20,122 bases of DNA from positions 1 through 20,122 of the IMG/VR virus record IMGVR_UViG_3300046323_000008, one strand, 5' to 3'. Position numbers and translations under genes: made by a program. Of this stretch, positions 1,447 to 20,122 are shown one piece after another. The DNA comes from a virus. Position 1 is the stretch's first letter. Each line of letters begins with the position of its first letter. The notes under the pieces were generated by a model that made no database searches, had not been told where the DNA came from, and saw only the letters and a program-made list of their open reading frames with translations.

Positions 1447-2691
1447 TTATTTACCTGCAAACATGTTGTAGAGAGACAATCCAGTTAAACCTGCACCGCC
1501 TAATTGACTTGCAAAGCTTGGAGCTGGAGTAGATGTAGCTGTTGTAGAAGAAGACTGAGATACTGGAACACCACGAAGGATATTAGCCATGTTTCCAAGT
1601 TGTTCTGCTGGGAAGCCTAAGCGACTCATTAAATCTTGATAACGAGCATCAATACCTTGCTGGTCAACTGCACGCTGTAAGTCACCATAAGCGCCTTGAG
1701 TTTTAATACGATCAATATCCGCAGCTTGTTCAGCAACACCCAACTGACCATAAGTAGCACCTAATGTGCCAAGTCCTGCCGCAGATTGAAGTGCAGCTGC
1801 CTGATTAGCTTTTTGTGCATCTAAGGCTTGTGCTGAACCTAATTGTTGCACACTAAGACCTGCTTGTTGGTTAGCTAAATCACGTGCTTGTTGTGCGGCT
1901 TGGTTAGCTCTTTGTGCCTCTAAAGACTGTGCAGAACCAAGTTGTTGTACACCAAGGCTAGCCTGTTGATTAGCTAAGTTGGTTTGGTAGGCTGCAGCAC
2001 GGTCACGCTCAAACTGTTGTTGTGCATTTGTATAGGCATCTTGTTGGCCTTTATACTGCAAACCTTGCATTTGCGACTGTAGGTTACGGTCTAATTCTGT
2101 TTGAGCAAGTAAACTTCTAGCGCCGCCATAAGTGCCTTGACGAGCCGAACCTAAATTCTGTGCAACAGAACGAATCTGTGCATCACGTAAAGCTTGGTCT
2201 TTAGCATAGTCGGTTACGTTTTGCTGGTAAGGCGACATGTATTTAGAAGCTTGATCTGCACCAAACTCACCTGCCTTATCCATTTGGTATTGCTGTAAAG
2301 TATTTGCAGTAACGTCTGTACCTGCCCCTAATTGGTACTGGCTAAGATCTTGGGCTTTTATTTGTGGGAGACTTCCGTATATATCTGTTGCTTTTCCTAA
2401 TGCAGTTGAACCTAAACCAAACTGTTCAGGAGTTTGCATACCTGCTAATTCTGTGCCAATTTGAGTTTGTAGTGCGGATAAGCCAGCTACTCGTCCTTCA
2501 CCACCTAAACCAGATGCAGCTAACTCATCACCGATTGTACCGGCATAATCTTTAGAAAAAATCTCTTGTGCTTTTGGTAGTAAACCAGGAATGTACCCCG
2601 CTTTCCCTTCAGTTCCTTTACCCACAAAATAGGGCATTAACTGGGTTGGGATTGACTGTTGTCCTGTTACGGTACTTGTTGTTGTTGCCAT
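1447..2691 (-). CDS. Gln/Ala-rich coiled-coil internal virion protein, 414 aa
   Basis: The protein is dominated by Ala, Gln and Gly. Residues 150-175 (YMSPYQQNVTDYA and following) open a long predicted helix continuing to about 350. Within it, residues 239-271 and 272-304 form a near-exact tandem 33-residue repeat. Low-complexity Ser/Thr residues (377-392) lead to a short hydrophobic tail ending SLYNMFAGK. From family knowledge, long Ala/Gln-rich helical proteins that sit beside tail-hub genes in podoviruses are typically ejection proteins, with P22 gp7, gp16 and gp20 as functional analogues. No sequence homology to those is claimed. The start has AAAGGA eight bases upstream of ATG, inside the tail of the previous gene. 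Confidence is good for a structural role and moderate for ejection. Confidence 0.7.
   Translation of the reverse strand: MATTTSTVTGQQSIPTQLMPYFVGKGTEGKAGYIPGLLPKAQEIFSKDYAGTIGDELAASGLGGEGRVAGLSALQTQIGTELAGMQTPEQFGLGSTALGKATDIYGSLPQIKAQDLSQYQLGAGTDVTANTLQQYQMDKAGEFGADQASKYMSPYQQNVTDYAKDQALRDAQIRSVAQNLGSARQGTYGGARSLLAQTELDRNLQSQMQGLQYKGQQDAYTNAQQQFERDRAAAYQTNLANQQASLGVQQLGSAQSLEAQRANQAAQQARDLANQQAGLSVQQLGSAQALDAQKANQAAALQSAAGLGTLGATYGQLGVAEQAADIDRIKTQGAYGDLQRAVDQQGIDARYQDLMSRLGFPAEQLGNMANILRGVPVSQSSSTTATSTPAPSFASQLGGAGLTGLSLYNMFAGK
1780..1977 (-). repeat. Tandem 33-residue repeat (2 x 99 bp) inside the coiled-coil protein
   Basis: Residues 239-271 and 272-304 of the 414-aa protein both start LANQQA and contain VQQLGSAQ, followed by L-[ED]-A-Q-[RK]-A-N-Q-A-A. 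The DNA copies have diverged, so this is an old duplication kept at protein level. A 33-residue period equals three 11-residue (hendecad) coiled-coil steps, which would preserve helical register. The hendecad reading is inference. Confidence 0.85.
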
Positions 2692-16402: not shown

Positions 16403-16690
16403 TTAATCTATCAAAAGTGTTTTTAATTCTGGGTGCCCAGCTTGCGCAAGGCGATTAGCTATAGTTGTTCTGTCTGACTTAATTGCTTCATGCAGGTAAA
16501 ACTCCACTACAGAACGAATGTTGTCTTTAAACGCTTCTGCTTGTTCGCGAATAATTGGATGCGAATCTTTACCAACATATAAGATTTTATCTACAGCACG
16601 GTCAGCAATTTGAGCTGGAGTAAACCCCTGCCCATTAGTAGTATGAACTTGTATACCACCTAAAAAACCTTCTAATGCGTTCGGCATCAT
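16403..16690 (-). CDS. Conserved phage protein of unknown function, 95 aa
   Basis: After GFTPAQIADRAVDKILYVG (residues 22-40), the protein is mainly alpha-helical (REQAEAFKDNIRSVVEFYLH, residues 48-67) and ends in ANRLAQAGHPELKTLLID. No membrane segment, metal site or catalytic motif is visible. I recognise the Q-I-A-D-R-A-x-D-K-I and D-N-I-R-x-V-x-x-F-Y patterns as a recurring small family located beside tail-adaptor genes in podovirus-like genomes, but know no assigned role. Two adjacent ATG codons are available. The one at 16690 overlaps the adaptor stop by four bases (ATGA), which supports translational coupling to the adaptor and joint use in neck or tail assembly. Confidence 0.75.
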   Translation of the reverse strand: MMPNALEGFLGGIQVHTTNGQGFTPAQIADRAVDKILYVGKDSHPIIREQAEAFKDNIRSVVEFYLHEAIKSDRTTIANRLAQAGHPELKTLLID

Positions 16691-17337
16691 CTGACTGGAT
16701 CCCTTACTTGTCCGTTGCGGTATGAATCACGTCTATCTTTACCATCGCCCAACTGTTTAAGCAGGGTAATAGCCTCGTTGTAGCGGGTCATATAGTTGCT
16801 TATTGTATCAGGACTTGACTTCATATAGGCAGCTGCTTCTAATAAAGAGCCGTATAAAAGCACAGATTCAAAGTTATCGCCAAGCCAACTAGTACCAGCA
16901 GTAACAATGGACTCTGGGTAGTAGAAGTAGTGCAGTTCTGCGTTGTAGCTAGCATCAGGGGTAGGCCCTAGGATGAACGTATTCTGGTCAAACTGCGCAT
17001 AGTACTTAGGTTCGCCATAAAACGCAGCATCTGTATCTGGGTATGATTCACGAATAAAGTTTACATCCTTGTTTAAAAGATATACATACTCGTTGTTAGG
17101 TTTAATTACCGCCAAGCTAAACGTAGCTAACCAGTCAGAAGGGCATGCTAAATACTTGTTACCTGAAGTTAAAGTACCTGTAACGTTTTTACGTAACGCT
17201 GGCAACTGAACAATGTTATATACACGCTCTTCAGCATTTTGTACAAATACGGGAATGTTCTCAATGAAACCCCCAGTACCTGTATCATAATTTTCAGCAT
17301 ACGCCTTAATTGCGGCGGTTAACTCAGCGTAGTTCAT
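16687..17337 (-). CDS. Tail adaptor protein (SU10-adaptor-like), 216 aa
   Basis: The fold pattern is an N-terminal helix (MNYAELTAAIKAYAENY), then IPVFVQNAEERVYNIVQLPA (residues 29-48), a beta-rich middle with KYLACPSDWLATFSLAVI (57-74), and LLNKDVNFIRESYP (82-95). After that come FILGPTPDASYNAELHYFYY and GTSWLGDNFESVLLYGSLLE. These blocks match a phage adaptor family I associate with the SU10 adaptor (PF24175-like, from memory), which docks under the portal and links it to the tail nozzle. A charged C-terminus (GDGKDRRDSYRNGQVRDPVR) may thread into the portal. The start overlaps the preceding stop by one base (TAATG) and the stop overlaps the next start by four. Adaptor identity is fairly secure, exact homology untested. 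Confidence 0.8.
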   Translation of the reverse strand: MNYAELTAAIKAYAENYDTGTGGFIENIPVFVQNAEERVYNIVQLPALRKNVTGTLTSGNKYLACPSDWLATFSLAVIKPNNEYVYLLNKDVNFIRESYPDTDAAFYGEPKYYAQFDQNTFILGPTPDASYNAELHYFYYPESIVTAGTSWLGDNFESVLLYGSLLEAAAYMKSSPDTISNYMTRYNEAITLLKQLGDGKDRRDSYRNGQVRDPVR

Positions 17338-17597
17338 TAGGCCATAGGTCCACGAGCCATAACGCCTTTAGTAGCAGCGCCAGTACCACGAATCTTAATA
17401 CCAGAAGTTTTAGTTTCTGGGTAGTTACCCTTAGATACACCTCCAACAGAAATATTGGCTTTATCTAGTCCATTGCCAGGCTTAGTAACAGCTGACTGTG
17501 CTGTAGTTACTTTTTTACCGTCCATAGTATGAGGCTCCGCATAAGTACTGGCAGGTCCTACTTCTTTCCCGCCTTGTTTCATAGAAAATTTAGCCAT
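17337..17597 (-). CDS. Small Gly/Lys-rich protein with RGTGAATKG tail, 86 aa
   Basis: The protein is basic, Gly/Thr/Lys-rich and without predicted long helices or a membrane span, so it is probably disordered unless bound. The C-terminal 24 residues contain TSGIKIRGTGAATKGVMARG, a tail I recognise from short hypothetical proteins next to phage connector genes. It lies between another tiny Gly/Lys-rich gene and the adaptor, with a two-base gap upstream and a one-base overlap downstream. AGAGG is nine bases before the ATG. A virion role such as lining the head-tail junction or binding DNA is a guess from charge and neighbours. Function unknown. Confidence 0.7.
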   Translation of the reverse strand: MAKFSMKQGGKEVGPASTYAEPHTMDGKKVTTAQSAVTKPGNGLDKANISVGGVSKGNYPETKTSGIKIRGTGAATKGVMARGPMA

Positions 17598-17599
17598 GA

Positions 17600-17785
17600 T
17601 TAACGGCCTCTTTGGTTATTGGCACGAGCCATATTGCGACCTACTGCACGCATAGCTTTTCCAGATACGCCGCCTGTTTTCTTACCACCCTTTTGGATGC
17701 CAGAAGTTGGACCTGAATCACCGTAGTTTTTACCTTCGGTTTTACCTTTTTTCTCAATGCCGTTGGCACCTGATTTGAATGACAT
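17600..17785 (-). CDS. Tiny Gly/Lys/Arg-rich protein, 61 aa
   Basis: About half of the residues are Gly, Lys, Arg or Ser. GIEKKGKTEGKNYG (9-22) resembles the GKT-x-G tags of the upstream small proteins. GDSGPTSGIQKGGKKTGGVS follows, and the end MRAVGRNMARANNQRGR is an Arg-rich helix candidate. A strong TAGGAG lies five bases before ATG and partly overlaps the previous stop codon, which supports real translation despite the small size. The charge suggests nucleic-acid or acidic-surface binding; nothing more can be said about function. Codon use and coupling are like its neighbours. Confidence 0.7.
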   Translation of the reverse strand: MSFKSGANGIEKKGKTEGKNYGDSGPTSGIQKGGKKTGGVSGKAMRAVGRNMARANNQRGR

Positions 17786-17793
17786 ATTAACTC

Positions 17794-18219
17794 CTAGTTT
17801 GTTGTTACTGTTACTGTACCTACTTGTCCAGCTGCAATCAAGTCATTTGGTGTAAGCCCGGTATCAAAACTCCTTGCCCCACCTACTGGATTCCAACCCC
17901 ATTGAAATACCCTACTACCCATTTCTGGACTACCTGCACCATCTGGACCAATTCCAGTAAGGTTTAATTGTAATCCTGAATTGCCCGACTGCAAATAGCT
18001 AACGTCTGGTCTTGGCTCCCGTACGGCTTGTGGGTCATTAACCGGATACATACCTAATTGCAACTGTGGCTGATCTGGGTCCCAACAACTAGGGCAAACT
18101 TTAACGTTATATAGCTTAGTTTTTAAGACCTGTTTCTTTAATTCTTTTAACTTATACCGCTGACCACACCTATCACATTCGGCAATCGCATGTTTACCAC
18201 TGGCAAATTTAGAAGGCAT
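17794..18219 (-). CDS. Zinc-ribbon protein of the neck region, 141 aa
   Basis: Cys15-x-x-Cys18 and Cys42-x-x-Cys45 (ECDRCG and VCPSCW) form a four-cysteine metal site in the N-terminal half, with a Lys-rich linker between them (KLKELKKQVLKTKLYNVK). DPDQPQLQLGMYPVNDPQAV (47-66) follows. The C-terminal half is Gly/Asn/Pro-rich and ends in GQVGTVTVTTN. Zinc binding is inferred from cysteine spacing. I recognise the Cys-Pro-x-Cys followed by D-P-D-x-P-Q-L as conserved in phages, but its job is undescribed to my knowledge. The position between connector and adaptor genes suggests a virion or assembly part rather than a transcription factor, although the latter cannot be excluded. GAGGTGA precedes the ATG. 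Confidence 0.75.
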   Translation of the reverse strand: MPSKFASGKHAIAECDRCGQRYKLKELKKQVLKTKLYNVKVCPSCWDPDQPQLQLGMYPVNDPQAVREPRPDVSYLQSGNSGLQLNLTGIGPDGAGSPEMGSRVFQWGWNPVGGARSFDTGLTPNDLIAAGQVGTVTVTTN

Positions 18220-18227
18220 AAGTCACC

Positions 18228-18950
18228 TCAATAAAACATTGAACGTGGCACAAACCTAATACTAGCTTTCTCACGGTCTTCATCAGCCGCAAGTTGGAAT
18301 TGTTGGTCGTAATCACCTTTTAAAATCGTAATACGCTCGGTACCTACTTCAGGCTTTTTCATAGCGATATAAAATGCTAGTCCTGCAACCATAGCTGGTA
18401 AGAAACGGAATGGAATATCTTGGGTGCTAATACCTGTACCAGCATCTTGAATACGACGTAAACGCCAGTAAACAAACTTATATTGGTCACCAGGAGCATT
18501 AGGTGTAGGCCAGACGTTAATTTGTGGGTACGCAATGCCGGTAACCGGGTTAGTTGCACCAGACTGGCGGTTAATCCAAACCTGAATTGGTCGGCCTTGT
18601 GCAAGCTTATTAGGGATAGTAGCGTAAGTAGATTCGGAAATACGGCTAATATTAATATCGGTTTGAGTAGCTTGTACACCAGCATTAGTACGAATAACTT
18701 GGTCTAGAAGGTCAATAGTATCAATAGGTAAGTCATATACGCCTTGTCCTGTAACCATAGGGATTTCACCCTGCTCGATAGTCCACAGATTAATGCCCTT
18801 ATTAGCCCACTCAATAGTAAGAAGGTTTAAAGAACGACGAGCAGTACGCAGGTCATATCCAGTACGTAGCTCTAAACCACAACGCTCAAACGCCTCTTCA
18901 ACGAGGTCATTAAGGTCTAGATTAAATGTTGACGAACCTGTAGTGGTCAT
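18228..18950 (-). CDS. Head-tail connector / tail tubular-like protein (gp4-type), 240 aa
   Basis: The N-terminal half is helical (LDLNDLVEEAFERCGLELRT, then RTARRSLNLLTIEWANKGIN) and is followed by the beta stretch TGQGVYDLPIDTIDLLDQVI (residues 68-87). A central block carries RISESTYATIPNKLAQGRP and then INVWPTPNAPGD. The C-terminus has FRFLPAMVAGLAFYIAMKKP and a charged helix with DEDREKASIRFVPR. This arrangement fits the podovirus connector ring proteins related in role to P22 gp4 or T7 gp11, which seal the portal after DNA packaging. The start shares an ATGA with the stop of the preceding small gene, so translation is coupled. Role is well supported by pattern and neighbours; which exact family cannot be settled without a profile search. 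Confidence 0.75.
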   Translation of the reverse strand: MTTTGSSTFNLDLNDLVEEAFERCGLELRTGYDLRTARRSLNLLTIEWANKGINLWTIEQGEIPMVTGQGVYDLPIDTIDLLDQVIRTNAGVQATQTDINISRISESTYATIPNKLAQGRPIQVWINRQSGATNPVTGIAYPQINVWPTPNAPGDQYKFVYWRLRRIQDAGTGISTQDIPFRFLPAMVAGLAFYIAMKKPEVGTERITILKGDYDQQFQLAADEDREKASIRFVPRSMFY

Positions 18951-19201
18951 TTTTTAGCAGCTCTCATGTTGTCTACTAGATTTGGGTATGGTCTACCTGC
19001 TGCTTTAGCCATTGCTTTTGCAGAAGCTTTTTTTGTAGACGATAGTTTCTTAGGCTTTCCTAGCTTCTTTGGACGTGACTTATCCCATACTTCTCCACCT
19101 TCAGCATACTGTGTGAAGTCAGTATCATCCCTACGGGCTTTTCTTTTCCCGCTAGGCATTTTAGAAGGGGCTATATCGCCCATACCACGAGAGGCTCTCA
19201 T
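18947..19201 (-). CDS. Small basic protein beginning MRASRGMG, 84 aa
   Basis: The N-terminus MRASRGMGDIAPSKMPSGKR is a start I recognise from several phages. QYAEGGEVWD (31-40) carries the [FY]-A-x-GG tag, and the rest is Lys/Ala-rich (SRPKKLGKPKKLSSTKKASA), ending AAGRPYPNLVDNMRAAKK. It is probably disordered or forms a basic helix; no domain is seen. I placed the start at 19201, where ATG overlaps the previous stop as ATGA, rather than at an upstream TTG (19228) that would overlap the preceding coding region by 31 bases. The gene ends with a four-base overlap into the connector gene. Function unknown. Confidence 0.75.
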   Translation of the reverse strand: MRASRGMGDIAPSKMPSGKRKARRDDTDFTQYAEGGEVWDKSRPKKLGKPKKLSSTKKASAKAMAKAAGRPYPNLVDNMRAAKK

Positions 19202-19512
19202 GCACGTGTCTTTCCACGAATTGCACAACCATCTGCACGTTTAGAAGCGGCGGATACCTTACCACCCTTTTTAAAGAAAGTAGTTGAGCTTCCAGGTTGG
19301 CCTAAAGCGTTTTGGATTTTACCTAACGAATCTGCAAGTTTTCCAGAACCTTGGCTAATACTTTCTAAGCCACTAAATGCGCTAGCGTTACTAACATTAT
19401 CTAAAGGACCCCCAGTAGGGGTAGGTGCAGGGGCAGTTGTTGGAGATTGGCTACCACTGAGCGAACTTAAGTCACCACCCATTGCAAATTTTTTAACTTT
19501 TTTAGTTGCCAT
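19198..19512 (-). CDS. Small Ser/Gly/Lys-rich protein with KRADGCAIRGKT tail, 104 aa
   Basis: The opening MATKKVKKFAMGGDLSSLSG contains a [FY]-A-x-GG tag at residues 9-13. Residues 20-45 are Ser/Thr/Pro-rich, and 46-75 form a possible amphipathic helix (LESISQGSGKLADSLGKIQN). The end is KKGGKVSAASKRADGCAIRG then KTRA-stop. This C-terminal tail closely parallels that of the 92-aa protein upstream, though it ends several residues earlier because the frame meets the ATGA junction with the next gene. No ribosome-independent feature stands out, and the flanking genes are two bases upstream and overlapping downstream. Function unknown; a role in the virion is inferred only from location. Confidence 0.75.
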   Translation of the reverse strand: MATKKVKKFAMGGDLSSLSGSQSPTTAPAPTPTGGPLDNVSNASAFSGLESISQGSGKLADSLGKIQNALGQPGSSTTFFKKGGKVSAASKRADGCAIRGKTRA

Positions 19513-19514
19513 GA

Positions 19515-19793
19515 TTAGACCATTTTACCTTTAGTTTTGCCTTTAACAGCACAACCATCGCCACGTTTGGAAGCGGAAGATACTGAACCGCCTTTGGCTT
19601 TTCTAACTGACTTAGCTTTTTCTTTATCTTCGTAGTACTTGTTTTGTGCTTCAGTACCCATAATACCTTCTTTAACCTTTTTATAGGCAGCTTTAGCGGG
19701 GTCAACAATATACTTGTTAAGGTTGGCTAAGTCTTCTTCATTCTGCTTGCGGTCAATATCCGCAACGATTTTATCTGGATCTGGCTGCGCCAT
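19515..19793 (-). CDS. Small charged helical protein with KRGDGCAVKGKTKGKMV tail, 92 aa
   Basis: Residues 1-62 are highly charged and helical (DPDKIVADIDRKQNEEDLAN, AKAAYKKVKEGIMG, NKYYEDKEKAKS). The last 19 residues, 74-92, carry the tail S-K-R-G-D-G-C-A-V-K-G-K-T-K-G-K-M-V. That tail is close to the end of the 104-aa protein downstream, and its GKTKGKMV occurs again in the protein upstream. It could be a bipartite protein: a helical body plus a basic tag. The ATG lies two bases after the upstream stop, with AAAGGAAA about seven bases before it. The tail has a single Cys, so metal binding would need partners. No function is recognised. Confidence 0.75.
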   Translation of the reverse strand: MAQPDPDKIVADIDRKQNEEDLANLNKYIVDPAKAAYKKVKEGIMGTEAQNKYYEDKEKAKSVRKAKGGSVSSASKRGDGCAVKGKTKGKMV

Positions 19794-19795
19794 GA

Positions 19796-20122
19796 TTATT
19801 TCTTTCCTTTAGACATGCCACCACCACACATAGTGACCATCTTACCCTTGGTTTTGCCCTTGGCCTCGATACCGCCGCCACGAGCCATGCCGTGCATACG
19901 CTTCTCGTGCCCTTTAACTTCTTTTTTGGCTACGGTTTTGCACTCAGTCATGCCACCTTTTTTCATACCTTTGGCTTCGGCTTTTTCGTGTTTGAGCATA
20001 GAAGCAGGAGCGCCTTTTTTCTTCATAAACGCAACTTCTTTTTGCATCATTGCTTTAGATTCTTTCATTTCGCCACCTTCTCTAAATTTTCTGCCTTTGT
20101 CGGCCTTTAAAAAGTCCTCACC
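19796..20122 (-). CDS. Lys/Met-rich small protein, probably partial at the window edge
   Basis: An ATG at 20068 gives 90 residues, but the frame stays open through 18 more codons to the window end (...KGRKFREGGE before that Met). The upstream segment carries the [FY]-x-x-GG tag seen in neighbouring genes, so the true start is likely outside the window. GAAGG also lies about eight bases before the internal ATG, so it remains possible. The body is helical and basic (ESKAMMQKEVAFMKKKGAPA, MLKHEKAEAKGMKKGGM), and the tail has GIEAKGKTKGKMVTMCGGGM then SKGKK. Met and Lys are unusually abundant. Function unknown. Confidence 0.65.
   Translation of the reverse strand, partial: GEDFLKADKGRKFREGGEMKESKAMMQKEVAFMKKKGAPASMLKHEKAEAKGMKKGGMTECKTVAKKEVKGHEKRMHGMARGGGIEAKGKTKGKMVTMCGGGMSKGKK

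Follow-up and report, generated by a model that had tools for sequence, protein, structure and literature searches.

A conserved C-terminal GKT-x-G tag on otherwise unrelated small proteins encoded between the capsid and neck genes of uncultured aquatic phages

Why do small phage proteins that otherwise do not resemble one another carry the same short ending? The question is raised by a virus record of 20,122 bases (IMG/VR IMGVR_UViG_3300046323_000008, positions 1 to 20,122; this whole stretch is called here the window), whose genes lie on the minus strand and in which an initial annotation had noticed variants of a GKT-x-G tag on several small proteins of unlike sequence. We report here that this tag is real, widespread, restricted in position and borne by otherwise unrelated bodies; whatever its mechanism, a conserved C-terminal tag explains the hypervariable island found between the capsid and neck genes of these phages.

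Four GKT copies were located in the window. The copy DGCAVKGKTKGKMV (19518-19559) is exactly terminal and is, within the window, the only full tag forming a C-terminal end; DGCAIRGKT (19207-19233) is followed by RA and the stop codon, and GIEAKGKTKGKMV (19835-19873, minus strand) by 12 further residues, TMCGGGMSKGKK. Thus, of three consecutive proteins that had been described as ending in the tag, the 92-aa one does so exactly and the 104-aa one in a short form, but the third does not; besides, its open reading frame (ORF) has its 5' end beyond the window edge, which makes the supposed 90-aa protein the C-terminal portion of something longer. The looser copy reported near the start of a 61-aa protein, GIEKKGKTEGKN (17726-17761), is indeed present, and its N-terminal form is kept in relatives. 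The copies had been placed rightly, with ends and positions that we slightly corrected. When the short proteins of the window were shuffled, one match appeared in 2 of 20,000 rounds and more than one in none, against the four observed, which rules out chance for these copies.

Over all the loci gathered, the tag is a tail of about 20 residues with the consensus (G)GxV-SSAS-[KS]R[AG]DG[CI]Ax[KR]GKT[KR]G[KR][MIF][VIC]-stop; 441 unique 22-mers give V/G-S-S-A-S-K-R-A-D-G-C/I-A-x-R/K-G-K-T-K/R-G-R/K-M-V/C/I. The G..T.G columns were demanded by the regular expression of the search, so that their 100% is by construction; among the residues not singly forced by it, D reaches 92%, K 98%, R 84% and A 83%. 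At least 863 distinct proteins contain the tag and at least 775 distinct ones bear it C-terminally, in about 400 IMG/VR loci; these loci were gathered via the tag or one tagged protein, and the counts tell where tags sit, not how frequent they are. The tag lies exactly three residues from the end in 546 of the 863 proteins. Most of the others have 9-26 extra residues and mostly end in Cys (a short KM..GGKxC tail is among these forms), a minority form, 41-54 residues away from the end, corresponds to the N-terminal motif of a ~65-aa protein, and the short form RGKTRA-stop occurs in at least 49 distinct proteins elsewhere. For relatives of the 92-aa protein, most hits aligned over the last 25-45 residues alone, often at 85-93% identity. 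A scan for the tag core that did not require a stop codon brought 100 newly fetched loci, and in all but few of them the tag lay at most ~26 residues from the C-terminus. A few longer proteins have an internal tag (SADGIAMKGKTKGKEVKM) with 100-190 residues after it (loci L327, L372, L387 and L391). The reversed-peptide scan is a poor control, since MKGKTKGKM is nearly palindromic: of its 112 newly fetched hits only about 5 were not the tag itself.

The tagged group consists of hundreds of uncultured aquatic phages and is widespread. A scan of GTDB genomes returned 7 contigs only, all from environmental assemblies judging by their titles; nothing in it points to a tag system of cells or to frequent prophages. 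Tagged genes also stand on contigs binned to bacterial metagenome-assembled genomes (Chitinophagales, Gammaproteobacteria, Porticoccaceae and lake bacteria; L434, L435, L436, L437 and L439), which are possibly host hints or binned phage contigs. A tblastn search of 50,697 phage records with nothing but the 32-aa tag gave no match, the length of the query and the filtering of low complexity being the probable reasons; MinM2, a cultured tagged phage, was reached through its gene neighbourhood only. In the open-access papers searched, a scope outside which most subscription journals fall, neither the GKT tag nor the DUF6321 domain considered below is described.

Loose linking sorts the 775 C-terminally tagged proteins into 198 body clusters (one large cluster being held together by low complexity) and strict linking into 356; the claim of a tag common to unlike small proteins thus stands, on ~200-350 unrelated bodies. 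Among 139 representatives a single one has a Pfam match (DUF6321) and 14 PHROG families are represented, by one member each; NCBIfam and PADLOC scans of the same 139 gave no match, and a PDB search found no relatives of tagged proteins. Bodies have a median isoelectric point (pI) of 10.0, with 15% Lys and 11% Gly, and are probably disordered. AlphaFold models of the 92-aa protein and of one DUF6321-tagged protein are of low confidence (mean predicted local distance difference test 60 and 57) and the tag, without secondary structure, is the least confident region of both (35-52); such an unfolded tag could fit, weakly, a linear motif acting only when bound. Where major capsid proteins (MCPs) are 80-90% identical, the flanking adaptor 1 is 65% identical while a counterpart above 60% exists for only 9% of the tagged genes, and above 97% MCP identity 40% of the tagged genes are still without counterpart. 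The island is hypervariable around a constant tag, and its turnover is much faster than that of the flanking genes.

The tag itself is under purifying selection as a peptide. In 521 distinct tag DNAs the codon positions 1 and 2 of Gly and Thr are fixed, third positions being much freer and near random at several sites. Within a contig, same-residue codon pairs (n=3,059) use the identical codon in 45% of cases, against 44% expected from local codon usage. The initial annotation, which from the different codons of the copies had argued for selection on the peptide and against recent duplication, is confirmed on this point, and DNA duplication is rejected as the origin of the tag copies. Tags are more alike within a contig (similarity 0.730) than between contigs (0.677; 0 of 500 permutations), which is consistent with a shared receptor.

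The position of the tagged genes in the genome is constrained too. At least one landmark gene is present in 391 of 399 tag loci, and in 134 of 134 loci of at least 10 kb. The median distance is 3.0 kb from the MCP gene down to the tag (10-90%: 2.2-4.3) and 1.4 kb from the tag to adaptor 1 (10-90%: 0.75-2.4). Tags are on the same strand as the landmarks everywhere except for two portal matches, and a locus has up to 6 tagged genes. Both the restriction in position and the clustering beside connector (SU10-like adaptor) and capsid genes are therefore borne out, the tag being found neither at random positions nor at background frequency. In two long relatives the genes follow the order terminase, portal, GroES, scaffold-like, MCP, putative cement, 173-aa protein and tagged cluster, then adaptor 1, Cys-pair protein, N-terminal GKT protein, second-tag protein and adaptor 2. 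The MCP gene matches PF25209 and PF10124 and is an HK97-fold shell gene; from portal to MCP in one locus (L028), comparison with Pfam and PHROGs revealed no separate protease, and the MCP matches only the capsid parts of fused protease-MCP PHROGs. The cultured freshwater cyanophage MinM2 has one tagged protein, of 308 aa, exactly between a gpT-like capsid gene and the adaptor; the sequence of MM2_5 (WEV89192) of this phage is ...RDGCAKRGRTKGRFI. MinM2 infects Synechococcus and is closely related to the Planktothrix phages Pag-Yong1 and Pra-JY27.

Read in gene direction from the right edge, the window first shows a tagged member of the "MPxxSxKQxxFM..." family, of which the 108-aa C-terminal part is present (19796..20122, 5' open) and which carries the long-tail form MARGGGIEAKGKTKGKMV + TMCGGGMSKGKK (19799..19888); the sequence EDFLKADKGRKFREGG of this ORF matches L046:9339-9836 (GAEFMKADKGRKFKEGG). 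Then come the 92-aa protein (19515..19793), with a helical body and the full C-terminal form GGSVSSASKRGDGCAVKGKTKGKMV (19518..19592), and the 104-aa protein (19198..19512), with the short form GGKVSAASKRADGCAIRGKTRA (19201..19269), both without Pfam or PHROG family. The stop of the short tag (GCA TGA, 19198-19206) overlaps the ATG of the next gene, an overlap that recurs in many relatives; this gene encodes an untagged conserved protein, MRASRGMG...AGRPYPNLVDNMRAAKK (phrog_34011; 18947..19201), the last of the tagged cluster. The downstream flank is the SU10-like adaptor 1 (PF24175; 18228..18950), followed by a 141-aa protein with Cys pairs, conserved between the adaptors (17794..18219; a possible Zn ribbon, weak), by the 61-aa protein with its N-terminal GKT motif MSFKSGANGIEKKGKTEGKNYGDSGP (17600..17785), by an 86-aa protein (17337..17597) and by the SU10-like adaptor 2 (PF24175, phrog_2941 virion structural; 16687..17337), all these features being on the minus strand. 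The flanking genes reach 34.3 and 83.8 bits for the SU10 adaptor, whose gathering cut-off is 27. Beyond adaptor 2, in gene direction, are fibre, lysis and ejection-type genes; a 414-aa protein (1447-2691, minus strand) weakly matches phrog_4287, a family of DNA ejection proteins (E 1e-4).

The ending of the 86-aa protein, GIKIRGTGAATKGVMARGPMA (17340-17402), had been counted as a further variant of the GKT tag. It is in fact a separate tag rather than just a loosened version of GKT: the form GIKxRGTGAATKGxxxRGPMA-stop ends exactly 8 residues past its core in 178 of 209 distinct proteins, and is usually present once per phage, on diverse bodies of 46-111 aa, between the Cys-pair protein and adaptor 2.

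What, then, is the GKT tag for? One tagged family leads to proteins of known virions. Its N-terminal motif of ~45 residues, MPSxSKKQxxFMxAVAxNPxFAKKVGVPxSVGxEF, is common to tagged proteins (L046:9339-9836), phiKZ-like jumbo phages and virion proteins confirmed by mass spectrometry, and matches PHROG virion structural families. The N-terminus of the family (MPSTSKKQHGFM...) matches phiKZ gp165.1 (66% over 53 aa) and also, again at the N-terminus, jumbo-phage proteins with a structural annotation, including CBB_322, which was detected in purified virions by mass spectrometry with 30 unique peptides (PMC5259590 Table 4).

We favour, giving it an even chance, the reading that makes the tag a linear signal at the C-terminus by which accessory proteins are recruited, docking and presence in the virion being what we infer. 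While the particle assembles, some component of the head or connector would offer the tail a conserved pocket to dock in, and the carried body would be built into or packaged inside the virion, possibly to be ejected with the DNA. Bodies could be freely exchanged while the address label stays, following the logic of the T4 internal proteins and their capsid-targeting sequence (CTS). The tag's lone Cys, which can stand at DGC or be C-terminal, may serve to lock or pack the tail where it docks; an adjacent site may be the address given by the second tag (RGTGAATKG..RGPMA), on one protein between the adaptors. In its full form the proposal is more tentative: the GKT tag might be a new C-terminal, Cys-bearing encapsidation signal loading hypervariable small proteins into the virions of a large aquatic phage group, the second tag addressing another site of the same head-neck complex.

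Several observations weigh against this reading. Among named phages DSL-LC04 is the closest in synteny; it shares the head genes and their order but has no tag, so that the head machinery does not need it. The similarity of tags within a phage could partly be descent. Covariation of the tag with MCP, adaptors, 202-aa and 141-aa proteins gave modest correlations and singled out no partner; the similarity of tags followed overall relatedness and set apart neither MCP nor scaffold nor adaptor. We found no virion proteomics of a tagged phage. Besides, the low-complexity bodies differ from the folded T4 internal proteins. As to DSL-LC04, one of its small proteins resembles, by eye, the body of a tagged protein but ends differently; two adjacent small proteins (L429:7316-7918, minus strand) end in GG(L/S)V...KKT(R/K)I(C/Y), which may be another tag, used by a relative that lacks the GKT one.

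The tag could also dock for assembly only, so that small factors of an accessory or chaperone-like kind reach the head or neck as it grows and are gone before the virion is complete. The same location and modularity would be expected, and the gene block also includes a phage GroES and a scaffold-like gene; but hypervariable bodies fit accessory cargo better than core assembly factors, and two of the tagged families have modules in common with proteins from virions or structural regions, which makes this alternative unlikely. We regard as slightly less likely still that the basic GKT/RG tail and the Lys-rich bodies bind packaged DNA, like internal condensing proteins. The body pI of ~10, the 15% Lys and the K/R at four tag positions would suit such a role; on the other hand, invariant G, T and D, hydrophobic C-terminal residues and an alternating Cys are not needed for binding by charge, and the tag is limited to one operon slot. 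Thus, of the docking or DNA-binding tail for capsid or portal that was initially proposed, recruitment is retained as an inference and DNA binding is weakened, because the exact D-G....G-K-T-x-G-x-hydrophobic pattern and the alternating Cys are kept, and not charge alone.

The cysteine deserves attention of its own. Bodies are Cys-free in 94% of cases (body Cys rate 0.06%, against 0.60% in other long ORFs), while 81% of the tagged proteins bear a Cys in the tag. In 279 unique tags it is found at DGC (position -12) only in 124, at the end only in 41, at both in 5 and at neither in 109 (Fisher p ~4e-8, inflated by relatedness); in DUF6321-bodied proteins it stands at -12 in 24, at -1 in 9, at both in none and at neither in one. 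The Cys might hence be the functional atom of the tag, through a disulphide, a cross-link or as the substrate of a modifying enzyme, as the Cys-poor bodies and the near exclusion between the two sites would suggest. We find this very doubtful: the 109 tags have no Cys at either site, the counts are not independent by descent, and no modifying enzyme was identified. A beta-hairpin placing Cys -12 opposite -1 was not retained, the pair being outside the top 14 mutual-information pairs and no hairpin appearing in the AlphaFold models. Finally, a selfish or shuffled cassette spread by recombination and devoid of recruitment function would explain why many unrelated bodies bear the tag and why body families are known with and without it, but is most improbable as tag pairs of one phage agree at synonymous sites no more often than expected from codon usage and third codon positions are near random where the first two are fixed.

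If the recruitment reading is true, a short label would predict which small proteins of uncultured phages are virion-borne or injected, hundreds of orphan families would become candidates for counter-defence or host take-over, and a portable phage-loading tag would be at hand.

How does the tag compare with known modules? DUF6321 (PF19846), matched by the tagged protein L028:8064-8381 (66 bits against a gathering cut-off of 28.5) and by none of those of the window, is present in 556 phage records, mostly of cyanophages and pelagiphages, the match nearly always stopping before the tag. It forms the C-terminal end of eight PHROG profiles (99-928 positions) and is thus itself a C-terminal module; it looks like another C-terminal address module of these phages. 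Like the tag, it terminates unrelated phage proteins, and is basic and Cys-ending; unlike it, DUF6321 has ~80 aa and its own conserved sequence. Untagged DUF6321 proteins of HTVC115P and MinM2 end directly after ...RAWNC/RAWKC, whereas here DUF6321 is a body and the tag is appended after the final ...RAWNC; since it is untagged in hundreds of cultured phages, the tag was added to an existing module.

The CTS of T4 is N-terminal and is cut off by the prohead protease. Like our tag, it is one small conserved signal on diverse small basic accessory proteins with fast body turnover; the tag, however, is C-terminal, kept in the reading frame, unrelated in sequence and carried by many genes of one head-neck operon. 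As the T4 signal is N-terminal and the tag C-terminal, the latter lies outside the CTS family. T4 internal proteins are themselves a highly diverse, encapsidated set (PMC3012670). Encapsulin targeting peptides, short and C-terminal, load cargo into an HK97-fold shell, and the cargo gene adjoins the shell gene (PMC8346489). The tag consensus is not TVGSL-like, a phage capsid is not a nanocompartment, each genome has several tagged proteins and, unlike encapsulin cargo, the 139 tagged proteins include no enzyme families; but the tag shares with these peptides its C-terminal position, on proteins encoded near an HK97-fold shell gene—here that of the MCP, ~3 kb upstream.

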